From assembly GCF_007954275.1 (NCBI RefSeq), contig NZ_VOLT01000006.1, positions 248,001 to 312,000 of the forward strand: DNA of 64,000 nucleotides. The letters run 5' to 3'. Of the stretch, positions 3,166 through 64,000 are shown one piece after another. The position numbers and the translations under genes were made by a program. Every line of letters begins with the position of its first letter. Positions within the stretch are counted from its first letter, which is position 1. The stretch comes from Colwellia demingiae (GTDB lineage Bacteria > Pseudomonadota > Gammaproteobacteria > Enterobacterales > Alteromonadaceae). The notes beneath the pieces are model-generated. The model did no database searches, was not told the DNA's origin, and was given only the letters and a program-made list of their open reading frames with translations.

Positions 3166-3242
3166 TGGTCGGTGATGCAAGATTCGAACTTGCGACCCCT
3201 TGGACCCAAACCAAGTGCGCTACCAAGCTGCGCTAATCACCG
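3166..3242 (-). tRNA. tRNA-Pro (anticodon TGG), second copy
   Basis: A 77-nt cloverleaf with encoded CCA. Its acceptor stem is CGGTGAT/ATCACCG and the anticodon loop contains TTTGGGT, giving anticodon TGG. It is identical base for base to the tRNA at 3522-3598. It is last in the minus-strand order Pro-Arg-His-Pro. Confidence 0.96.
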
Positions 3243-3291
3243 ACATATTCTCTCAATATTTTATTAGTAGAAGATACTAATAAAGTAAAGA

Positions 3292-3368
3292 TGGGGTGGC
3301 TAAAGGGACTTGAACCCTCGACAACCGGAATCACAATCCGGGGCTCTACCAACTGAGCTATAGCCACC
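3292..3368 (-). tRNA. tRNA-His (anticodon GTG)
   Basis: A tRNA with encoded CCA and the anticodon-arm sequence CCGGATTGTGATTCCGG (anticodon GTG). The extra 5' G (G-1) paired with C73, the histidyl identity element, is visible, so the limits include it. Confidence 0.96.
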
Positions 3369-3400
3369 ATAACACTTTTTCATTTCCCCATACCTAAGTA

Positions 3401-3477
<77 letters not shown>

Positions 3478-3521
3478 GAATTTTCCTACAAAGCATATCC
3501 ACTTAAACTAAAAAATAAAAG

Positions 3522-3598
3522 TGGTCGGTGATGCAAGATTCGAACTTGCGACCCCTTGGACCCAAACCAAGTGCGCTACCAAGCTGCGCTAATCACCG
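3522..3598 (-). tRNA. tRNA-Pro (anticodon TGG), first copy
   Basis: Identical to the tRNA at 3166-3242, with encoded CCA. It is first in the tRNA operon and closest to the promoter at 3649-3677. Confidence 0.96.
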
Positions 3599-46572: not shown

Positions 46573-46922
46573 GGGGCGGATCTAGGATTCGACAAGATTC
46601 ATGAAACTCAAGGTGCATGCCCAGGGGCGGTTTGCCTGGTAAAAAGCCGCAAAACTATAATTGCTAACGACGATACGTTCGCACTAGCCGCTTAGGCTAG
46701 CCATCGCCTTGAAATCTCTCCTATTGGTTAGAGGATCGATGGTCACCCCAAATAGGATAGCGAGGGAAGCACGCTTGAGGCTGAACCGCGAAATAGTATC
46801 AAGCTCACCATGACGAAGCCTGTCGCTTGGCGTCTAATTGGTTAAATAAATGAGCGACTAAGCATGTAGTACCGAGAACGTAGGCTTTTTGGACGGGGGT
46901 TCGATTCCCCCCCGCTCCACCA
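46573..46922 (+). ncRNA. ssrA: Transfer-messenger RNA (tmRNA, SsrA)
   Basis: A 350-nt tmRNA. The tRNA-like ends pair (GGGGCGG with CCGCTCC), followed by A and encoded CCA, with a T arm GGGGGTTCGATTCCCCC. The reading frame at 46663-46695 encodes the proteolysis tag ANDDTFALAA followed by TAG; the charged alanine is added before it. The ALAA end is the ClpXP recognition signal, and clpXP is also in this window. The gene follows smpB and is closed by a terminator at 47002-47026. Confidence 0.97.
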
Positions 46923-55957: not shown

Positions 55958-57085
55958 TCAGCCTCTAAAATAGCGCTGCTCAACAAATGGCATTTTTTGA
56001 ATTAGCATAGGCAGTTTTTTACCGCGAACTTCGGCAAAAATTTCCGTATCTAATACTGCATATTGAGTTTGAACATACCCCATGGCAATGGGAGAGCCTT
56101 TAGTTGGTCCAGCGGTACCACTGGTTACTACGCCAATTTCGTCGCCTTGGGTATTGAATAATTTAACACCTTCTCGTACAGGGGCTTTACCTAAACCAAC
56201 CATACCGATGCGTTTACGAGCAACGTCTTTTGTTACGATTTGATCAAGAATAATGTCTGCGCCTGGGAAACCACCAGCACGTGCACCATCAGTACGTCTT
56301 ATCTTGCTAATTGCCCATAACAAGCTTGCCTCAACTGGCGTTGTTGTTTGGTCAATATCATGGCCATATAAACATAAACCTGATTCTAAACGAAGAGAAT
56401 CACGTGCGCCTAAACCAATCCACTCAATTTCTTCCTCAGCTAACATCAAGCGAGTAATACGCTCAGCATGTTCACCAGGAATTGATATTTCAAAGCCATC
56501 TTCACCCGTATAACCAGCTCGGCCGATAATACATTGAGCGCCAGCGAAATCTACTACACGAGAATCCATGAATACCATATCAGCAGACTCAGGCAATAAG
56601 CGTTTTAATACTTCACCTGCTTTTGGTCCCTGTAAAGCCAATAAAGCACGGCCTTCTAGGATTTCTATTTTAACATCTGCAGGCAGGTGTTTTTGCATGT
56701 GCGCAATATCTTGCGTTTTACATGCGGCATTAACTACAACAAATAAATGGTCGCCAAAGTTGCTCACCATTAAATCATCAAGTAAACCACCTTGCTCATT
56801 AGTAAATAGCGCATAACGCTGTTTACCTTGTGGTAAATCGATAATATCAACCGGCACTAATGTTTCTAATGCGGCCGCAGCATTTTTTCCAACTAGTTTT
56901 AATTGTCCCATATGAGAGACATCGAACAATCCTGCTTGAGCACGAGTATGTAAATGCTCTTTCTTAACGCCCATTTCGTACTGTACAGGCATATCATAGC
57001 CAGCAAATGGTACCATTTTGCCGCCAGCTTCAATATGAAGGTCGTAGCATGGAGTTTTGAGCAGTTCTTGATTTGATTCAGTCAT
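55958..57085 (-). CDS. gcvT: Glycine cleavage system T protein (aminomethyltransferase)
   Basis: GcvT releases ammonia from the aminomethyl-lipoyl H protein and passes the methylene group to THF. The 375-residue protein has the expected THF-binding core (VPFAGYDMPVQY, FDVSHMGQLKL, GYTGEDGFEISIP and the DSLRLESGLCLYG region). Start at ATG 57085, with GGAG 6 bases upstream. Unusually it is on the opposite strand from gcvH and gcvP, about 2.9 kb from glyA. It lies 60 bp downstream of a Na+/amino acid symporter gene with which it is probably co-transcribed. Confidence 0.96.
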   Translation of the reverse strand: MTESNQELLKTPCYDLHIEAGGKMVPFAGYDMPVQYEMGVKKEHLHTRAQAGLFDVSHMGQLKLVGKNAAAALETLVPVDIIDLPQGKQRYALFTNEQGGLLDDLMVSNFGDHLFVVVNAACKTQDIAHMQKHLPADVKIEILEGRALLALQGPKAGEVLKRLLPESADMVFMDSRVVDFAGAQCIIGRAGYTGEDGFEISIPGEHAERITRLMLAEEEIEWIGLGARDSLRLESGLCLYGHDIDQTTTPVEASLLWAISKIRRTDGARAGGFPGADIILDQIVTKDVARKRIGMVGLGKAPVREGVKLFNTQGDEIGVVTSGTAGPTKGSPIAMGYVQTQYAVLDTEIFAEVRGKKLPMLIQKMPFVEQRYFRG

Positions 57086-57145: not shown

Positions 57146-58528
57146 TTAGTCTGCTTGTTTTGTCATTTCAGCAGGAGCTTCGCCGCCGCTAGTAAAGTAT
57201 TCACGAGTTAATTTAATCACTACCGGACTTAGTAAGACTAGTGCGATTAAGTTAGGAATTGCCATTAACGCGTTCATTGTATCGGCAAGTAACCAGATGA
57301 ATTCTAACGAACCAACAGCGCCAACAGGTACAACTAAAATCCAAAGAATACGGAAAGGCATAATAGCTTTAACACCAAAGAAGTACTGTACACACTTCTC
57401 ACCGTATACACTCCAACCTAGTATAGTTGTAAATGCAAAAACTGTAAGAGCAATAGCTACAATGTAGTTACCATATGGAATCGCTGTGGCAAAAGCATTC
57501 GAGGTTAATTCAGCACCCGTTGAACCAGATGTCCACTCACCAGAAACAACAATAGCTAAACCGGTAATTGTACAAACAACTAAAGTATCAATGAACGTTC
57601 CTAACATTCCCACAAGGCCTTGAGCTACAGGGTTATTAGTTTTAGCCGCTGCATGAGCAATAGGAGCACTACCTAAACCAGCTTCATTTGAGAAAACACC
57701 ACGAGCCACACCGAAACGAATAGCAGCCCAAACAGCAGCACCGGCGAATCCACCTTCAGCAGCAGTTTCTGTAAATGCACTTTCAAAAATTAGAGCGATA
57801 GCTGCAGGAAGTTCAGCAGCATGTACGAATAAAACAACAACACCAGCACTGATGTAGAATATAGCCATTAATGGAACAAGTTTACCGGCAACATCACCAA
57901 TACGTTTAATACCACCCATAAGCACTAAGCCTACAAGTACCATTAGAATAATACCGGTAGCTGCAGGCGGAACACCAAAGCTACTTTCAAGTGCGTTTGC
58001 AACTGAGTTTGATTGTACTGTATTACCGATACCAAAAGCAGCGATAGAACCAAATAGTGCGAATGCACCACCTAACCAGCCCCATCTGCTTGATAAACCG
58101 TTTTTAATATAGTACATCGGACCACCGATTTGGTTACCGTTTGCATCAACTTCACGATAACGAACTGCCAATACAGCTTCAGCAAATTTAGTCGCCATAC
58201 CTACTAAGGCAGTACACCACATCCAAAATAGTGCGCCTGGGCCACCTAGGAATATAGCAGTTGCAACACCAGCGATATTACCAGTACCGATAGTTGCGGA
58301 TAGTGATGTCATTAATGCATTAAAAGGGCTGATTTCGCCTTTAGCATTTTTATCTTCATCTGGAATACGACCTGTCCAGAGCAACCTAAAGCCTGTTACT
58401 AACTTAAGGATCGGCATGAATCGTAAACTGACCATTAAGAATAAACCAACACCAAGTATCATAACTAGCATGGGGACACCCCAAACCAAGCTATTGAGAC
58501 TGGAAATTAAACCCGTTAAAAATTCCAT
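57146..58528 (-). CDS. Sodium:alanine/glycine symporter (AGCS family)
   Basis: A 460-residue inner membrane carrier with about ten helices. The AGCS signatures NALMTSLSATIGTGNIAGVATAI, GGPMYYIKNGL and ARGVFSNEAGLGSAPIAHA (each segment visible in order) are complete. AGCS carriers take up alanine or glycine with Na+; next to gcvT and opposite glyA-gcvHP, glycine is the likely substrate. A palindrome at 58635-58650, about 110 bp upstream, matches one in front of glyA. Confidence 0.94.
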   Translation of the reverse strand: MEFLTGLISSLNSLVWGVPMLVMILGVGLFLMVSLRFMPILKLVTGFRLLWTGRIPDEDKNAKGEISPFNALMTSLSATIGTGNIAGVATAIFLGGPGALFWMWCTALVGMATKFAEAVLAVRYREVDANGNQIGGPMYYIKNGLSSRWGWLGGAFALFGSIAAFGIGNTVQSNSVANALESSFGVPPAATGIILMVLVGLVLMGGIKRIGDVAGKLVPLMAIFYISAGVVVLFVHAAELPAAIALIFESAFTETAAEGGFAGAAVWAAIRFGVARGVFSNEAGLGSAPIAHAAAKTNNPVAQGLVGMLGTFIDTLVVCTITGLAIVVSGEWTSGSTGAELTSNAFATAIPYGNYIVAIALTVFAFTTILGWSVYGEKCVQYFFGVKAIMPFRILWILVVPVGAVGSLEFIWLLADTMNALMAIPNLIALVLLSPVVIKLTREYFTSGGEAPAEMTKQAD

Positions 58529-58634: not shown

Positions 58635-58650
58635 GTTTCCAATAGGAAAC
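58635..58650. promoter_or_regulatory. Candidate operator GTTTCC-N4-GGAAAC (upstream of the symporter-gcvT genes)
   Basis: A perfect inverted repeat with arms GTTTCC/GGAAAC and spacer AATA. The same palindrome occurs at 59607-59628 with spacer TATA. Being present on both sides of the XRE-cupin gene, it is the best candidate for that regulator's binding site. Confidence 0.65.
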
Positions 58651-58806
58651 AAGCTAGCTAAAAATATGAGGAATTGCAAGTTTTAAATTGGAATAGTTGA
58701 GCTTTATTTTTTGTAATTATAGTGATTATAAAATAAAACACTTGTTCTAAAATAAGCATTAATAGCTTTGAATACAAGGCATTATGAGATGTGCCTTTGT
58801 GGTATT

Positions 58807-58838
58807 CAATTGACTTTAGCAGGAACTAAAGACAATTG
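58807..58838. terminator. Hairpin downstream of the XRE-cupin gene
   Basis: CAATTG and CTTTAG pair with CTAAAG and CAATTG around a 6-base loop with one A/A mismatch. It lies just after the end of the regulator on the minus strand. No U run follows, so termination is uncertain. Confidence 0.5.
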
Positions 58839-58892
58839 ACTTAATCTGACGGGTAAGCGTTATTCTGCAGTAATCCACAATATCAATGCATC

Positions 58893-59489
58893 CTATTTGC
58901 TAGTCGATATGACAAGGTGCCCCATGGTCGCATCGTAATAGGCACTGTCTCCCACAACTAAGGTTGCAGGCTCATAAAATTCAGTCAGCAGTTGAACTTC
59001 TCCCTCCAAAACCAGCAGGAACTCCTCACCTTCATGACGAACCCACTCACCAAAATGGTCAAAGTTTCGCGCATGAACTCTACTTTTGTATGGCATCATC
59101 TTTTTGTTTCTAAGCTGAGTAGACAACAGTTCATGCTCGTAGGTTAGCGTGGCGTGGGGCCGTCCTTGCCCATTTAGGGTTACGTCTCTTCGACCCGTCA
59201 CCTTAGTTTCTTTAGGTTTGGTAAATAATTGGGGTAACTCAATATTAAGCCCCGAAGCCAACTTTTGCATGACGCTAAACGTTGGTGAAATTTGTTCATT
59301 TTCAATCTTTGACAAGGTAGAACGCGCCAATCCAGTGCGTTTACTTGCTTCTTCAAGCGTCAATTTATTTTCAGTTCGAATCGCTTTAAGCTGCACGCCT
59401 ATCGTCGCTTTCTCTACCACTCGCTTATTATTTTCATTATCCCCAATAGTCATTGAAGGATACTTATCAACCTTATCATGCTCGCTCAT
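58893..59489 (-). CDS. XRE-family regulator with C-terminal cupin domain (likely truncated by an amber codon)
   Basis: A 198-residue regulator with an N-terminal XRE helix-turn-helix (about 28-85; LTLEEASKRTGLARSTLSKIE) and a C-terminal cupin sensor (about 125-195; EEFLLVLEGEV, VVGDSAYYDATMGHLVIST). The frame ends at TAG 58893-58895, after ISTSK. The next codons in the same frame read DALILWITAE and then TAA (58860-58862), which looks like the normal last strand of such cupins. It therefore seems to carry a late nonsense codon. The protein may still work, be read through, or be impaired. It lies between the symporter-gcvT and glyA-gcvHP groups and is their likely regulator. Confidence 0.88.
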   Translation of the reverse strand: MSEHDKVDKYPSMTIGDNENNKRVVEKATIGVQLKAIRTENKLTLEEASKRTGLARSTLSKIENEQISPTFSVMQKLASGLNIELPQLFTKPKETKVTGRRDVTLNGQGRPHATLTYEHELLSTQLRNKKMMPYKSRVHARNFDHFGEWVRHEGEEFLLVLEGEVQLLTEFYEPATLVVGDSAYYDATMGHLVISTSK

Positions 59490-59606
59490 CGTACCACCTA
59501 GCTAAATATTTCGTTTAAACAATAGTGGCACATTAACAACCTATACAGAACTCTTTTAGGAAACTATCAAGGGGATAGCGCTACATTGACTAGACTTTAT
59601 TGAAAT

Positions 59607-59628
59607 AAAGTTTCCTATAGGAAACTTT
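59607..59628. promoter_or_regulatory. Candidate operator, perfect palindrome between the XRE-cupin gene and glyA
   Basis: Arms AAAGTTTCC and GGAAACTTT flank TATA, so the full 22 bp is self-complementary. It lies just upstream of a plausible glyA promoter (TTGCAT at 59632-59637, 17 bases, TATGTT at 59655-59660). A half site (TAGGAAAC at 59557-59564) stands 61 bp further left, beside a possible -35 of the regulator's own promoter. Confidence 0.7.
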
Positions 59629-59941
59629 TATTTGCATTTATAAATATTGCCTGTTATGTTTTATACGTGTTCGAAATTCAATCAATACGAAAATCAGTAC
59701 TAGAAAGATGTTTGGTTCACGAGCACTTCTAGGTAAAAGGTATAGCACCGACAATATCTCCGCCTTTGATAAAGCATTCTAACGATGCGTCAAACAGGCA
59801 TAGATATGATAAATAAATATAACGAAATGTCTCAGGGTGGTTTAGCAATAAACGCAGTAACCTGTAAATAAAGACTATCAAACATAATCATTAGGTTACT
59901 GAATGCATATTCATAACGCTTAACTATTGAGGAATACAACA

Positions 59942-61237
59942 ATGAAAAACACTTACACATCTGGTGAACTAGAACAATTTTTTTCAAGCAAACTCTCTTC
60001 TACTGATGGCGCCGTTCAAGTGGCTATAGACCTTGAAGAAGCGCGTCAAAATCAGCAAATAGAATTAATCGCTTCAGAAAACATTGTTTCAAAAGCAGTT
60101 ATGGAAGCTCAAGGCACGGTATTAACAAATAAATACGCTGAAGGTTATCCTGGCCGTCGTTACTATGGTGGCTGTGAACATGTTGATCTAGTTGAAACGT
60201 TGGCGATTGATCGAGCCAAGCTTATCTTTAAAGCTGATTACGTTAACGTACAACCTCATTCAGGCGCACAAGCTAATGGCGCAGTAATGCTTGCCTTAGT
60301 AAAGCCGGGCGATACTATTTTAGGCATGTCACTTGATGCCGGCGGCCATTTAACCCATGGCGCTAAACCTGCTCAATCAGGAAAGTGGTTCAATGCAATT
60401 CATTACGGCGTTCGCAAGGATGATATGCGTATTGATTATGACCAAGTATTAGCACTTGCTAAAGAACATAAGCCAAAAATGATCATCGCTGGTGGCTCAG
60501 CAATTCCTCGTCAAATAGATTTTGCTAAGTTCCGTGAAATTGCCGATCAAGTTGGTGCCATCTTAATGGTTGATATGGCCCATATTGCTGGCTTAGTAGC
60601 TGCGGGCGCACATCAAAACCCACTACCTTTCGCAGATGTTGTTACTACCACAACGCATAAAACATTAAGAGGCCCTCGTGGCGGCTTAATTTTAACCAAC
60701 AATGCAGATGTCGCGAAGAAAATTAATTCGGCTGTATTCCCTGGTTTGCAAGGTGGCCCATTAATGCATGTTATTGCTGCAAAAGCAGTCGCTTTAGGCG
60801 AAGTACTAGAACCATCTTTTGGTGCGTACATCAAGCAAGTATTAAGCAACGCTAGAGTGCTAGCTAGCACATTGCAACAAAGAGGTTGTGACATAGTTAC
60901 TGATGGAACTGATACCCATTTAATGCTGGTTGACTTACGTCCTAAAGGATTGAAAGGAAATACCACAGAAGAAAGTTTAGAACGAGCAGGCATTACTTGT
61001 AACAAAAATGGTATTCCATTCGATTCAGAAAAACCTATGGTAACTTCTGGTATTCGTTTAGGTACTCCAGCAGGTACTAGTCGTGGTTTTGGTAATGAAG
61101 AGTTTGAATTAATTGGACAGTGGATTGGTGATGTTCTTGATGGTTTAGTTGCAAACCCAGAGGACAATAGCGTAGCAGAAAAGAAAGTTTTACAGCAAGT
61201 TCAAGAACTTTGCTTGAGATTTCCACTATATAGCTAA
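59942..61237 (+). CDS. glyA: Serine hydroxymethyltransferase
   Basis: SHMT interconverts serine and glycine with THF using PLP. The PLP lysine is in [14 protein letters not shown]. Conserved parts include [38 protein letters not shown] and [16 protein letters not shown] start at ATG 59942 (TGAGGA 9 bases upstream; the in-frame TTG at 59927 overlaps that site), giving 431 residues, a little longer than usual at both ends. Placed before gcvH and gcvP, it is probably a catabolic copy that turns the methylene-THF and glycine flow toward serine. A second glyA elsewhere in the genome is likely but cannot be seen here. Confidence 0.95.
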
Positions 61238-61288: not shown

Positions 61289-61675
61289 ATGAGCACAGCA
61301 GAAAAAGATTATCAATTTGCCCCAAGTCACGAGTGGGTTAAAAATAACAATGACGGTACCGTTACTATCGGTATTTCAAACCATGCGCAAGAGTTGTTAG
61401 GTGATGTTGTTTTCATTGAACTACCTGAGCAAGGCGATGAAATAACTGCCGGTGAACAATTTACACTCGTAGAATCAGTAAAAGCCGCTTCAGACGTATA
61501 CGCGCCTGTATCGGGTGAAATCATTGAAATTAATGAAGCACTAGAAGACTCACCAGAGTCAATTAACCAATCCGCATTTGTTGAAGGCTGGATTGTAAAA
61601 GTTAAGCTTTCAGAGCCTGAGCAATTAGAAAGTTTACTTAGTTATGAGGCATATAATGCCGGTATCCAAGACTAA
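61289..61675 (+). CDS. gcvH: Glycine cleavage system H protein
   Basis: GcvH carries the lipoyl arm that shuttles the aminomethyl group between GcvP, GcvT and the L protein. The 128-residue protein has the lipoylation lysine in LVESVKAASDVYAPVSGE (near residue 65). It is 51 bp after glyA and 51 bp before gcvP, in one operon. Confidence 0.96.
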   Translation: MSTAEKDYQFAPSHEWVKNNNDGTVTIGISNHAQELLGDVVFIELPEQGDEITAGEQFTLVESVKAASDVYAPVSGEIIEINEALEDSPESINQSAFVEGWIVKVKLSEPEQLESLLSYEAYNAGIQD

Positions 61676-61726: not shown

Positions 61727-64000
61727 ATGACTAACAACAATTTATTAGCACAACTGAACGATAATTTAGATTTTATCAGTCGACATAATGGCCCTGATCG
61801 AGCCCAACAACAGCATATGTTAAAAACGCTGAAAGTAGACTCTATCGAACAAATGATCGATAAAACAGTGCCAGATAATATTCGCCTTTTGCAGCCAATG
61901 GCATTAGCAAAACCACAAAGCGAAGTTGAAATGTTGGCAACACTCAAAGGTATAGCTTCAAAAAACAAAGTAAACAGAAGTTATATTGGACAAGGGTATT
62001 ATGATACCCATGTTCCTCACGTTATTTTACGTAATGTGTTCGAAAATCCTGGCTGGTATACCGCTTATACGCCTTATCAGCCAGAAATTTCACAAGGTCG
62101 TTTAGAAGCACTACTTAATTTTCAACAAATGATCACTGATCTTACCGCAATGGAATTATCCAATGCGTCTTTGCTCGATGAAGCCACCGCAGCTGCAGAA
62201 GCCATGAACTTATGTAAGCGTGCCAGTAAAAACAAAAGTAACGTCTTTTTTGTTAGTGACGATGTTCACCCACAAACATTAGATGTGATCAATACACGAG
62301 CAAAATACTTTTCTTTTGACGTTGTGGTAGCACCATGCTCAGAACTAGAAAATCATGATGTATTTGGTGCTTTGTTGCAATATCCTGGCACAACAGGACA
62401 AGTACACAATTTAGAAGACATCATAGAACAAGCCCATAGCAAAAAAACTTTGGTTGCAGTTGCCGCTGACTTACTCTCTTTAACTGTACTTAAAGCGCCT
62501 GGAGAAATGGGCGCTGATGTTGTTATAGGGAGTGCTCAACGTTTTGGTGTTCCCATGGGTTACGGTGGTCCACACGCTGCTTTTATGGCCACTAAAGAAA
62601 AATATAAGCGCACTATCCCTGGTCGAATTATCGGTGTTTCAATTGACTCAAAAGGTCAGCCTGCTTTGCGTATGGCTATGCAAACACGAGAGCAACATAT
62701 TAGGCGAGAAAAAGCCAATTCGAATATTTGTACCGCGCAAGCATTACTTGCCAATATGGCATCCTTTTATGCCGTGTACCATGGTCCACAAGGGCTGAGG
62801 AAAATGGGTAGACGCGTGAATCGTTTAACATCAGTGCTCGCTGCGGGTTTACAAAAAGCAGGTATTGAACTGGTACATAATGATTTCTTCGACACTATTA
62901 CCCTACAAACAAATGAACAAACTGATGCGATTTATCAACGCGCATTAGCTGCAGATCTTAATTTGCGCTTATTGCCTAACCAACTTGGCATTAGTTTGGA
63001 TGAAACCACGACAGCCGCTGATGTAGAGGCATTATGGTTAGCTATCACTGAAAAATCATTTAACGTTGACGATATCGAACAAACACTAAGTGCAGAGTTT
63101 TGTAACATACCTGCTGATTGTCAGCGTACTAGTGAGTATTTAAGCCACCCAGTATTTAATAGTTATCACAGTGAAACGCGAATGTTGCGTTATTTAAAAA
63201 GTCTTGAAAATAAAGACTTTTCATTAACTCACGGCATGATACCGCTGGGCTCATGTACAATGAAGCTCAATGCTACTGCTCAGATGATCCCTGTTACCTG
63301 GCCTGAATTTTCACGAATGCACCCTTTTGCTCCAAGCGATCAATGTACAGGTTATGAAGCCCTAGCCGAAAGCTTTAGCGATATGCTAATAGAAGTGACT
63401 GGATATGACGCTTTTTCATTACAGCCAAACTCTGGTGCTCAAGGAGAATATGCAGGACTTATTGCTATTCAACGTTACCATGCCTCTCGAGGTGATAATC
63501 ATAGAAATATCTGTTTAATACCAAGCTCTGCCCATGGAACTAACCCAGCTAGTGCTTCAATGGTATCAATGCGTATTGTACTTGTTAATTGTGATAAAGA
63601 AGGCAATGTTGATGTCAATGATTTGAAGGAAAAGATAAACCTTCACCGTGATCAACTATCTGCAATGATGATCACTTATCCTTCAACACATGGCGTTTAT
63701 GAAGAGAGCATCAAAGAAATTTGCGAGCTTATTCATGAAGCTGGTGGTCAAGTTTATCTTGATGGTGCCAATATGAATGCACAGGTAGGGTTAACTTCGC
63801 CTGGCTTTATTGGCGCTGATGTTTCTCATCTCAACCTACATAAAACATTTTGTATTCCACACGGCGGCGGTGGCCCAGGCATGGGACCTATAGGTGTTAA
63901 ATCACATTTAGCTGACTTTTTACCAGGGCACAGTGTTACCAATACAGTAGGCGCAGTATCAGCAACCGCACTAGGTAGTGCTTCTATTTTACCTATTTCT
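61727..64000 (+). CDS. gcvP: Glycine cleavage system P protein, glycine dehydrogenase (5' part)
   Basis: GcvP is the PLP enzyme that decarboxylates glycine and loads the H protein. The frame is open from ATG 61727 to the right edge (758 codons); the remaining 200 or so residues are outside. The N-terminal [27 protein letters not shown], and [15 protein letters not shown] segments are typical. The PLP lysine is Lys706 in [18 protein letters not shown] checked that these blocks are all in one frame, so there is no frameshift in the visible part. Confidence 0.96.

Follow-up and report, generated by a model that had tools for sequence, protein, structure and literature searches.

How might a second set of glycine-cleavage genes be controlled in Colwellia demingiae? 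The question is raised by a stretch of 64,000 nucleotides (positions 248,001 to 312,000 of contig NZ_VOLT01000006.1, assembly GCF_007954275.1; the window in the following), in which the gene of an XRE-cupin protein lies between two groups of glycine genes and has the palindrome GTTTCC-N4-GGAAAC on either side. A sequence-only reading of this DNA had seen in the shared repeat a candidate glycine-catabolism regulon, an idea that is supported by the conservation of the repeat, by its presence on gcv genes away from the regulator gene and by the finding that exact sites examined in relatives with no detected regulator are not near gcv genes. We propose that the palindrome is bound by the local XRE-cupin protein, and that this protein is probably a repressor of both arms of the second glycine-cleavage set that is relieved by glycine.

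The locus and its palindromes

The genes and candidate sites of the locus are as follows.

55958..57085, minus strand: gcvT, aminomethyltransferase gene (PF01571, NF010093), predicted target
57146..58528, minus strand: AGCS sodium:amino-acid symporter gene (PF01235, TIGR00835), predicted target, presumably for glycine import
58635..58650, no strand: putative operator 2, GTTTCCAATAGGAAAC, upstream of AGCS-gcvT
58893..59489, minus strand: XRE-cupin regulator gene (HTH_3 and Cupin_2), 198 amino acids, from Pfam and the orthologue alignment
59557..59564, no strand: half site, TAGGAAAC
59607..59628, no strand: putative operator 1, AAAGTTTCCTATAGGAAACTTT, a palindrome perfect over its 22 bp, located between the regulator gene and glyA
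59942..61237, plus strand: glyA, serine hydroxymethyltransferase gene (PF00464, NF000586), predicted target
61289..61675, plus strand: gcvH (PF01597, TIGR00527), predicted target
61727..64000, plus strand: gcvP, continuing past the window end, from the open reading frame (ORF) call, predicted target

AGCS, GcvT, GlyA and GcvH were called with both Pfam and NCBIfam and the two regulator domains with Pfam, while gcvP was recognised by sight and through a 65%-identical second copy in the genome rather than by a family scan.

In the proposed mechanism, a dimer of the intact regulator would bind RTTTCC-N4-GGAAAC at two operators flanking its own gene, and would thereby control import and the T-protein (AGCS-gcvT) on one side and glyA-gcvH-gcvP on the other. 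As a repressor it would occlude both promoters, and binding of glycine or a near product to its cupin domain would release it; glycine is suggested as the releasing ligand because the predicted targets serve to import glycine, to cleave it, to convert it to serine and, in one relative (G127), to deaminate serine.

Both palindromes lie exactly where the sequence-only reading had placed them, and they are the only exact copies of GTTTCC-N4-GGAAAC in the window and in the whole genome of 5,227,722 bases, in which the pattern read backwards, our control, has one exact match. The core of operator 1 occupies 59610-59625 within the 22-bp palindrome. When up to two mismatches are allowed, the window holds five sites against 1.95 expected, a number that is reached in 4 of 100 shuffles. 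The half site is present as had been described and is kept in only three of seven aligned sequences, the window included; we considered it as an extra operator and set it aside, and it is probably not essential.

The genome of C. demingiae (G000) contains two gcvP genes, the separate 65%-identical copy being located at G000:C24. The gcv genes of the window are thus a second glycine-cleavage set, and the palindrome accompanies this set and its regulator, since the other gcvTHP set is without a site (best match with five mismatches in the region that precedes the gcvT gene of this housekeeping set, in both G000 and G033) and two genomes without the regulator (G011 and G037) have only the other, housekeeping-type gcvP. 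Around gcvP of these two genomes no site with one mismatch was found; a single match with two mismatches in G037 lies, by its position, inside gcvP.

Conservation of the palindrome with the regulator

Relatives were compared in a set of 147 genomes, our own included, and at named loci, the best 80 of 341, of which 77 remain after removal of three paralogue loci (L076, L080, L081). The two sets overlap (e.g., L061 with G026 and L062 with G032), and the nearest named relatives are strains of Colwellia psychrerythraea. An orthologue of the regulator stands beside gcv or glyA genes in 15 of the 147 genomes, and in all 15 a site that deviates in no more than one position adjoins it. Among the 77 named loci, which span Colwellia, Shewanella, Vibrio, Photobacterium, Psychromonas and others, a site upstream of the regulator (site 1, corresponding to operator 1) is exact in 29, present with at most one mismatch in 68 and with at most two in 73, as compared to means of 0, 0.08 and 1.3, respectively, in dinucleotide shuffles. 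The conservation near orthologous loci that had been set beforehand as a check of the idea is therefore found in both sets. The motif also emerges without prior choice: in an unbiased count of 5-mer inverted repeats with gaps of 0-10, TTTCC-N4-GGAAA ranks first and occurs in 44 of 55 dereplicated upstream regions. Two features of the XRE-cupin class, a palindrome next to the regulator's own gene and a small, mostly local regulon, are thereby recovered, the former in the 68 named loci and the latter in the two exact genomic sites beside the gene.

In many Vibrio loci the second site, before AGCS or gcvT (site 2), is asymmetric (GTTTATTATTGGAAAC). Many Vibrio gcvT leaders (e.g., L093) have in addition a second, imperfect GTTTCC...GGAAA repeat directly after site 2, which is perhaps a tandem operator.

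Sites away from the regulator gene

The palindrome and the regulator gene can be told apart where the locus is split. In G127 and G146 a regulator-glyA pair is separate from an AGCS-gcvT//gcvH-gcvP pair, and the latter carries an exact site of its own (GTTTCCGATAGGAAAC). G127 has a further exact site before sdaA, encoding L-serine ammonia-lyase (TIGR00720), and another about 300 nucleotides (nt) upstream of a Porin_4 gene. Beyond the glycine genes, an exact site lies about 300 nt upstream of a PTS_EIIC_2 (PF13303) gene in G033, G026 and G007, and with one mismatch in G032 and G027; this comparison comprises six members of the genus with the gene (L178, L179, L180, L215, L217, L224).

Porin-like genes also follow gcvP in G127 (Porin_4 by Pfam) and, judged by eye, in G033 and G146 (L181:8787-9851, L183:5385-6467, L223:239-1321); the Porin_4 gene of G127 with an exact site upstream is a second such gene in that genome.

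Exact sites occur in 33 of the 147 genomes, 21 of which have no detected gcv-type regulator. These genomes served as a negative control, with one exact site per genome in 19 of the 21 (G104, with its site in an ORF, and G137 are outside it): in stretches of 3 kb, none of the 19 sites is near gcv, glyA or AGCS genes, 17 of them being within ORFs and two intergenic. G007, which is counted as regulator-less, possesses the second gcv set on a contig that ends in glyA, and its apparent lack of the regulator may be due to this contig end; its exact site at PTS_EIIC_2 is a second one in this genome.

Position relative to predicted promoters

Candidate promoter elements were recognised beside both operators.

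58651..58656, minus strand: predicted -10-like hexamer of the AGCS-gcvT promoter, TAGCTT, abutting operator 2
58674..58679, minus strand: predicted -35 of the AGCS-gcvT promoter, TTGCAA, from conservation
59632..59637, plus strand: predicted -35 of the glyA-gcvHP promoter, TTGCAT, 6 nt past the 16-bp core of operator 1
59655..59660, plus strand: predicted -10 of the glyA-gcvHP promoter, TATGTT, from sequence and conservation

On the glyA side, 45 of 73 loci have a TATGTT that starts 28-30 nt past the 16-bp core, always with TTG at a spacer of exactly 17 bp (45 of 45), and the hexamer is found only three times in 18,396 other positions. The centre of operator 1 would accordingly lie near -50 of the predicted promoter, if the start is assumed about 7 nt past the -10. 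On the other side, 13 Colwellia-like loci (the window and 12 more) have an AT-rich hexamer abutting the core and TTG at -29 (ten loci) or -28 (three loci), and this placement of operator 2 fits the geometry of a repressor.

The regulator protein

The sequence-only reading had called the gene between the sites an XRE-cupin regulator, and this is confirmed by Pfam, with HTH_3 (2.5e-14) and Cupin_2 (1.3e-6) both above cut-off and in the order of the class, XRE helix-turn-helix (HTH) at the N-terminus and cupin at the C-terminus; the ORF, on the other hand, is shorter than in orthologues. A TAG at 58893-58895 ends the window protein after 198 residues, whereas the full C-terminus is read through in all 80 named loci. 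Over its length the protein is 97% identical to the nearest orthologue, and its HTH is complete. The early stop could represent real decay or a sequencing error. An AlphaFold model of an orthologue from a 57-row alignment (predicted local distance difference test, pLDDT, 82.1; predicted template modelling score, pTM, 0.53; an earlier model from 11 sequences was poor, with a pLDDT of 52.9) places the HTH helices at residues 29-79 and the cupin strands at 109-207, the last of them at 200-207. As the window regulator lacks this last strand, it may be weakened or inactive in this strain. In the 57 rows, H190 of the orthologue is invariant and H151 and E155 are at least 90% conserved; together, we take them to resemble the metal triad of cupins.

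Structural neighbours of the orthologue model match well by separate domain only, C.AhdI and SinR for the HTH and many cupins for the barrel, and therefore no ligand can be read from structure. In Foldseek the top rank goes to HppE-type epoxidases and the sixth to 1Y9Q, at full-length root-mean-square deviations (rmsd) of about 12 and 18; a VIA search likewise has Psf4/HppE first (full-length rmsd near 12), and 1Y9Q was not among the matches listed. Assignment as the PuuR equivalog (NF007408) was rejected, since the protein scores 50.9 bits where the cut-off is 211, and matches over residues 28-96 only.

An interrupted reading frame was also noticed in G045, where the orthologue (L023 / L060) falls into two ORFs, one of 133 and one of 79 amino acids, with a site kept on each side.

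Paralogues and the sarcosine genes

Three paralogues of the regulator, at 69-71% identity, are encoded in the C. demingiae genome, and they offer a comparison of site and protein. None of the paralogue neighbourhoods examined has an intergenic site at up to two mismatches; at the same threshold these neighbourhoods and the DNA before both sox operons of G033 give three matches, all in coding sequence (soxA of each G033 copy and a serine-dehydratase-like ORF of L045). The recognition helix reads A(R/K)STLSK in all 30 gcv-linked rows printed, and P or A takes the R/K position in eight of nine paralogues. These eight form one clade in the tree (100/99), which joins the gcv-linked rows of Colwelliaceae weakly (88/65), with L045 standing apart.

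Two paralogues of G033 (L043, L044) are found beside soxDAG-purU, where the sox names come from NCBIfam on L043 only and were carried to L044 through identical ORF starts. In passages of PMC3691474, Collins and Deming note that each soxBDAG operon of C. psychrerythraea 34H is followed by an XRE regulator, namely CPS_2483 and CPS_4037; by position, and with G033 taken as 34H, these should be the ~70% paralogues of L043 and L044. They resemble the window regulator in standing beside the sarcosine pathway, which feeds glycine, and they differ from it in their recognition helix and in having no intergenic palindrome with up to two mismatches. No gcv regulator is mentioned in these passages of PMC3691474.

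As side observations, the ~70% paralogues L043 and L044 and those of the C. demingiae genome at L038 and L039 all adjoin purU, and have on the other flank a gene for a glutathione-independent formaldehyde dehydrogenase or a GGDEF gene. A further paralogue type is represented by L040 and L042; L040 is near glmS-/glmU-like ORFs (by eye), and genes for glycine or sarcosine are not evident there.

Evaluation of the proposed regulation

Our case, in which binding, ligand and repression are inferred, draws on the site itself, on how well it is conserved and how it co-occurs with the regulator, on the separated targets and on the position relative to conserved promoter-like hexamers. Several observations weigh against it. 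By number the palindrome does not stand out: when one mismatch is allowed, the C. demingiae genome has seven sites, as compared to 12 of the reversed pattern (all five one-mismatch sites fall within ORFs); over the 147 genomes 50 exact sites compare with 44 of the reversed control; and RTTTCC-N4-GGAAAY, with 0-5 matches per genome, is not enriched in 24 regulator-bearing genomes, which represent 24 of the 80 named loci (57 against 46 of the reversed control). The argument therefore rests on position. Here too there are gaps, in that site 1 is missing from four of the 77 named loci (L072, L073, L082, L123), site 2 is found before AGCS or gcvT in only 44 of the 77, even with two mismatches allowed, and one of these 44 copies lies within gcvT (L107; the other 43 are outside genes). 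Between the regulator gene and AGCS or gcvT no symmetric repeat dominates in the unbiased count, and many of the loci are closely related and thus non-independent. A generic promoter scan of the window lists neither of the two proposed promoters, which therefore rest on conservation. The site before the PTS_EIIC_2 gene is degenerate in C. demingiae itself (four mismatches), the paralogue L045 keeps R in its helix yet has no intergenic site, and the window regulator ends 11 residues short of its orthologues, the last cupin strand being gone. Finally, the position of operator 1 is ambiguous, as it also fits an activator.

This ambiguity leads to an explanation of dual mode that we consider unlikely, in which the same protein would repress AGCS-gcvT from the -10/start region and activate glyA-gcvHP from near -50 through contact with RNA polymerase, in the manner of some lambda-CI-like proteins. 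Polymerase could also be blocked by a dimer that covers about -60 to -39, it would be odd for the two halves of one pathway to be controlled in opposite ways, several Photobacterium loci keep the site without an adjacent TATGTT promoter, and the XRE-cupin proteins characterized in passages of PMC7901475 are repressors. Quite unlikely, in our estimation, is a broader version with the XRE-cupin protein as a two-way switch that would block import and gcvT at the start site and activate glyA-gcvHP beside the -35, while copies altered at a single residue of the recognition helix would have been recruited in Colwellia to the sarcosine-oxidase operons one step earlier in the route, so that the regulator family would track the route from betaine to serine. 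It is somewhat unlikely that the regulator has already become a pseudogene in the window strain, its sites being relics or being served by paralogues. The premature stop that deletes the last cupin strand, the three paralogues and the PTS_EIIC_2 site, exact in three relatives and degenerate here, would all agree with this; against it, both window operators are perfect in the core, the protein as far as it extends is nearly identical to its nearest orthologue and has a complete HTH, the stop may stem from an error in sequencing, and the paralogue neighbourhoods examined have no intergenic site at up to two mismatches.

It is very improbable that the palindrome belongs to another regulator, be it a GcvA-type LysR protein, HexR or a PUR factor without assigned protein, with the XRE-cupin protein as a bystander. 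A GcvA-type protein is indeed encoded by G000:C29 (453.6 bits against a cut-off of 288), not near the locus; the earlier statement that no other known control of glycine cleavage is visible thus stands for the riboswitch, which was not found in the genome, and is to be qualified for GcvA. Passages of PMC3223726 predict the gcvTHP genes of Shewanella under GcvA, HexR and PUR, and those of PMC5343134 include the glycine cleavage system in regulons of a central-carbon regulator (which we read as HexR) of Shewanellaceae and Vibrionales. The site, however, tracks the XRE-cupin gene in 15 of 15 genomes and is near gcv in none of the 19 controls without a detected regulator, the upstream region of the housekeeping gcvT is free of it, and the recognition helix is altered in eight of the nine siteless paralogues. 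HexR-like sites in the window were rejected, as a HexR-like consensus pattern is not enriched (six found against 8.5 expected); of the three Shewanella regulators, this comparison of motifs covers HexR. That the repeat acts as RNA, in a terminator or attenuator hairpin, appears extremely unlikely. A terminator scan does report a stem-loop with a trailing T run at each of the two repeats, but operator 1 precedes the -35-like hexamer that is conserved before glyA, and the outermost positions of the core form a non-pairing A/C in 32 of 73 loci (G/C in 36), so that changes in one arm go uncompensated; on these two grounds the hairpin was rejected. No Rfam family reaches threshold in the window locus or in 11 orthologue loci.

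Comparison with known systems

The proposed repression by a local XRE-cupin protein has precedents in Pseudomonas aeruginosa, where, according to passages of PMC7901475, XRE-cupin regulators have self-adjacent sites and palindromic motifs and act by repression. PsdR, PauR and ErfA share with the window regulator the HTH_XRE and cupin domains, a palindromic operator and a site by their own gene; the gene of PsdR is surrounded by two sites, as it is here, and most of these regulators have few targets, in the uptake or breakdown of amino acids or small molecules (PMC7901475, same passages). They differ in operator sequence and targets, and the sign of control and the ligand are, for the window regulator, predicted. 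The word glycine does not occur in the main text of PMC7901475, and glycine, GTTTCC and GGAAAC are absent from PMC12565409, which deals with XRE palindromes. The accessible literature yielded no XRE-cupin regulator of glycine genes, although an earlier in-silico record may exist. The E. coli putrescine regulator PuuR is similar insofar as it is the best NCBIfam match of our regulator, over the HTH.

In function, GcsR of P. aeruginosa is comparable, with dedicated control of gcv-glyA-sdaA in glycine use and with two gcv sets (passages of PMC4894688). The targets overlap, as sdaA has a site in G127; GcsR differs in being a TyrR-like enhancer-binding activator with the site TGTAACG-N4-CGTTCCG (same passages), whereas the window regulator is of the XRE-cupin type and its putative site has a different sequence. 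GcvA, HexR and PUR of Shewanella are alike in controlling glycine cleavage in a related bacterial family (PMC3223726, in part); the former two belong to other protein families and PUR has no assigned protein in those passages. The window palindrome, moreover, is on the second set and not before the housekeeping gcvT (G000, G033).

A glycine riboswitch (RF00504) was rejected as a candidate, with no match in the window, in the C. demingiae genome or in the 11 orthologue loci. It was found in 13 of the 147 genomes, and in all eight loci inspected from these it precedes a diverged AGCS gene (48-54% identity), with no gcv gene in the 3-kb stretch; the parallel lies in glycine control of an AGCS transporter. 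Since these loci (L170-L177) belong to other families of the order, control of the importer may have passed from RNA to protein or the reverse. This suggests non-orthologous control, by a riboswitch on AGCS in some families and by an XRE-cupin operator on AGCS-gcvT in others.

Among marine nutrients, glycine and its betaine precursors are important. The locus offers a testable pair of regulator and operator for the catabolic use of glycine in Colwelliaceae, Shewanellaceae, Vibrionaceae and Psychromonadaceae.

Other features of the window

Apart from the glycine locus, the window contains four transfer RNA genes within 3166-3598 and a transfer-messenger RNA gene at 46573-46922 with the tag ANDDTFALAA.
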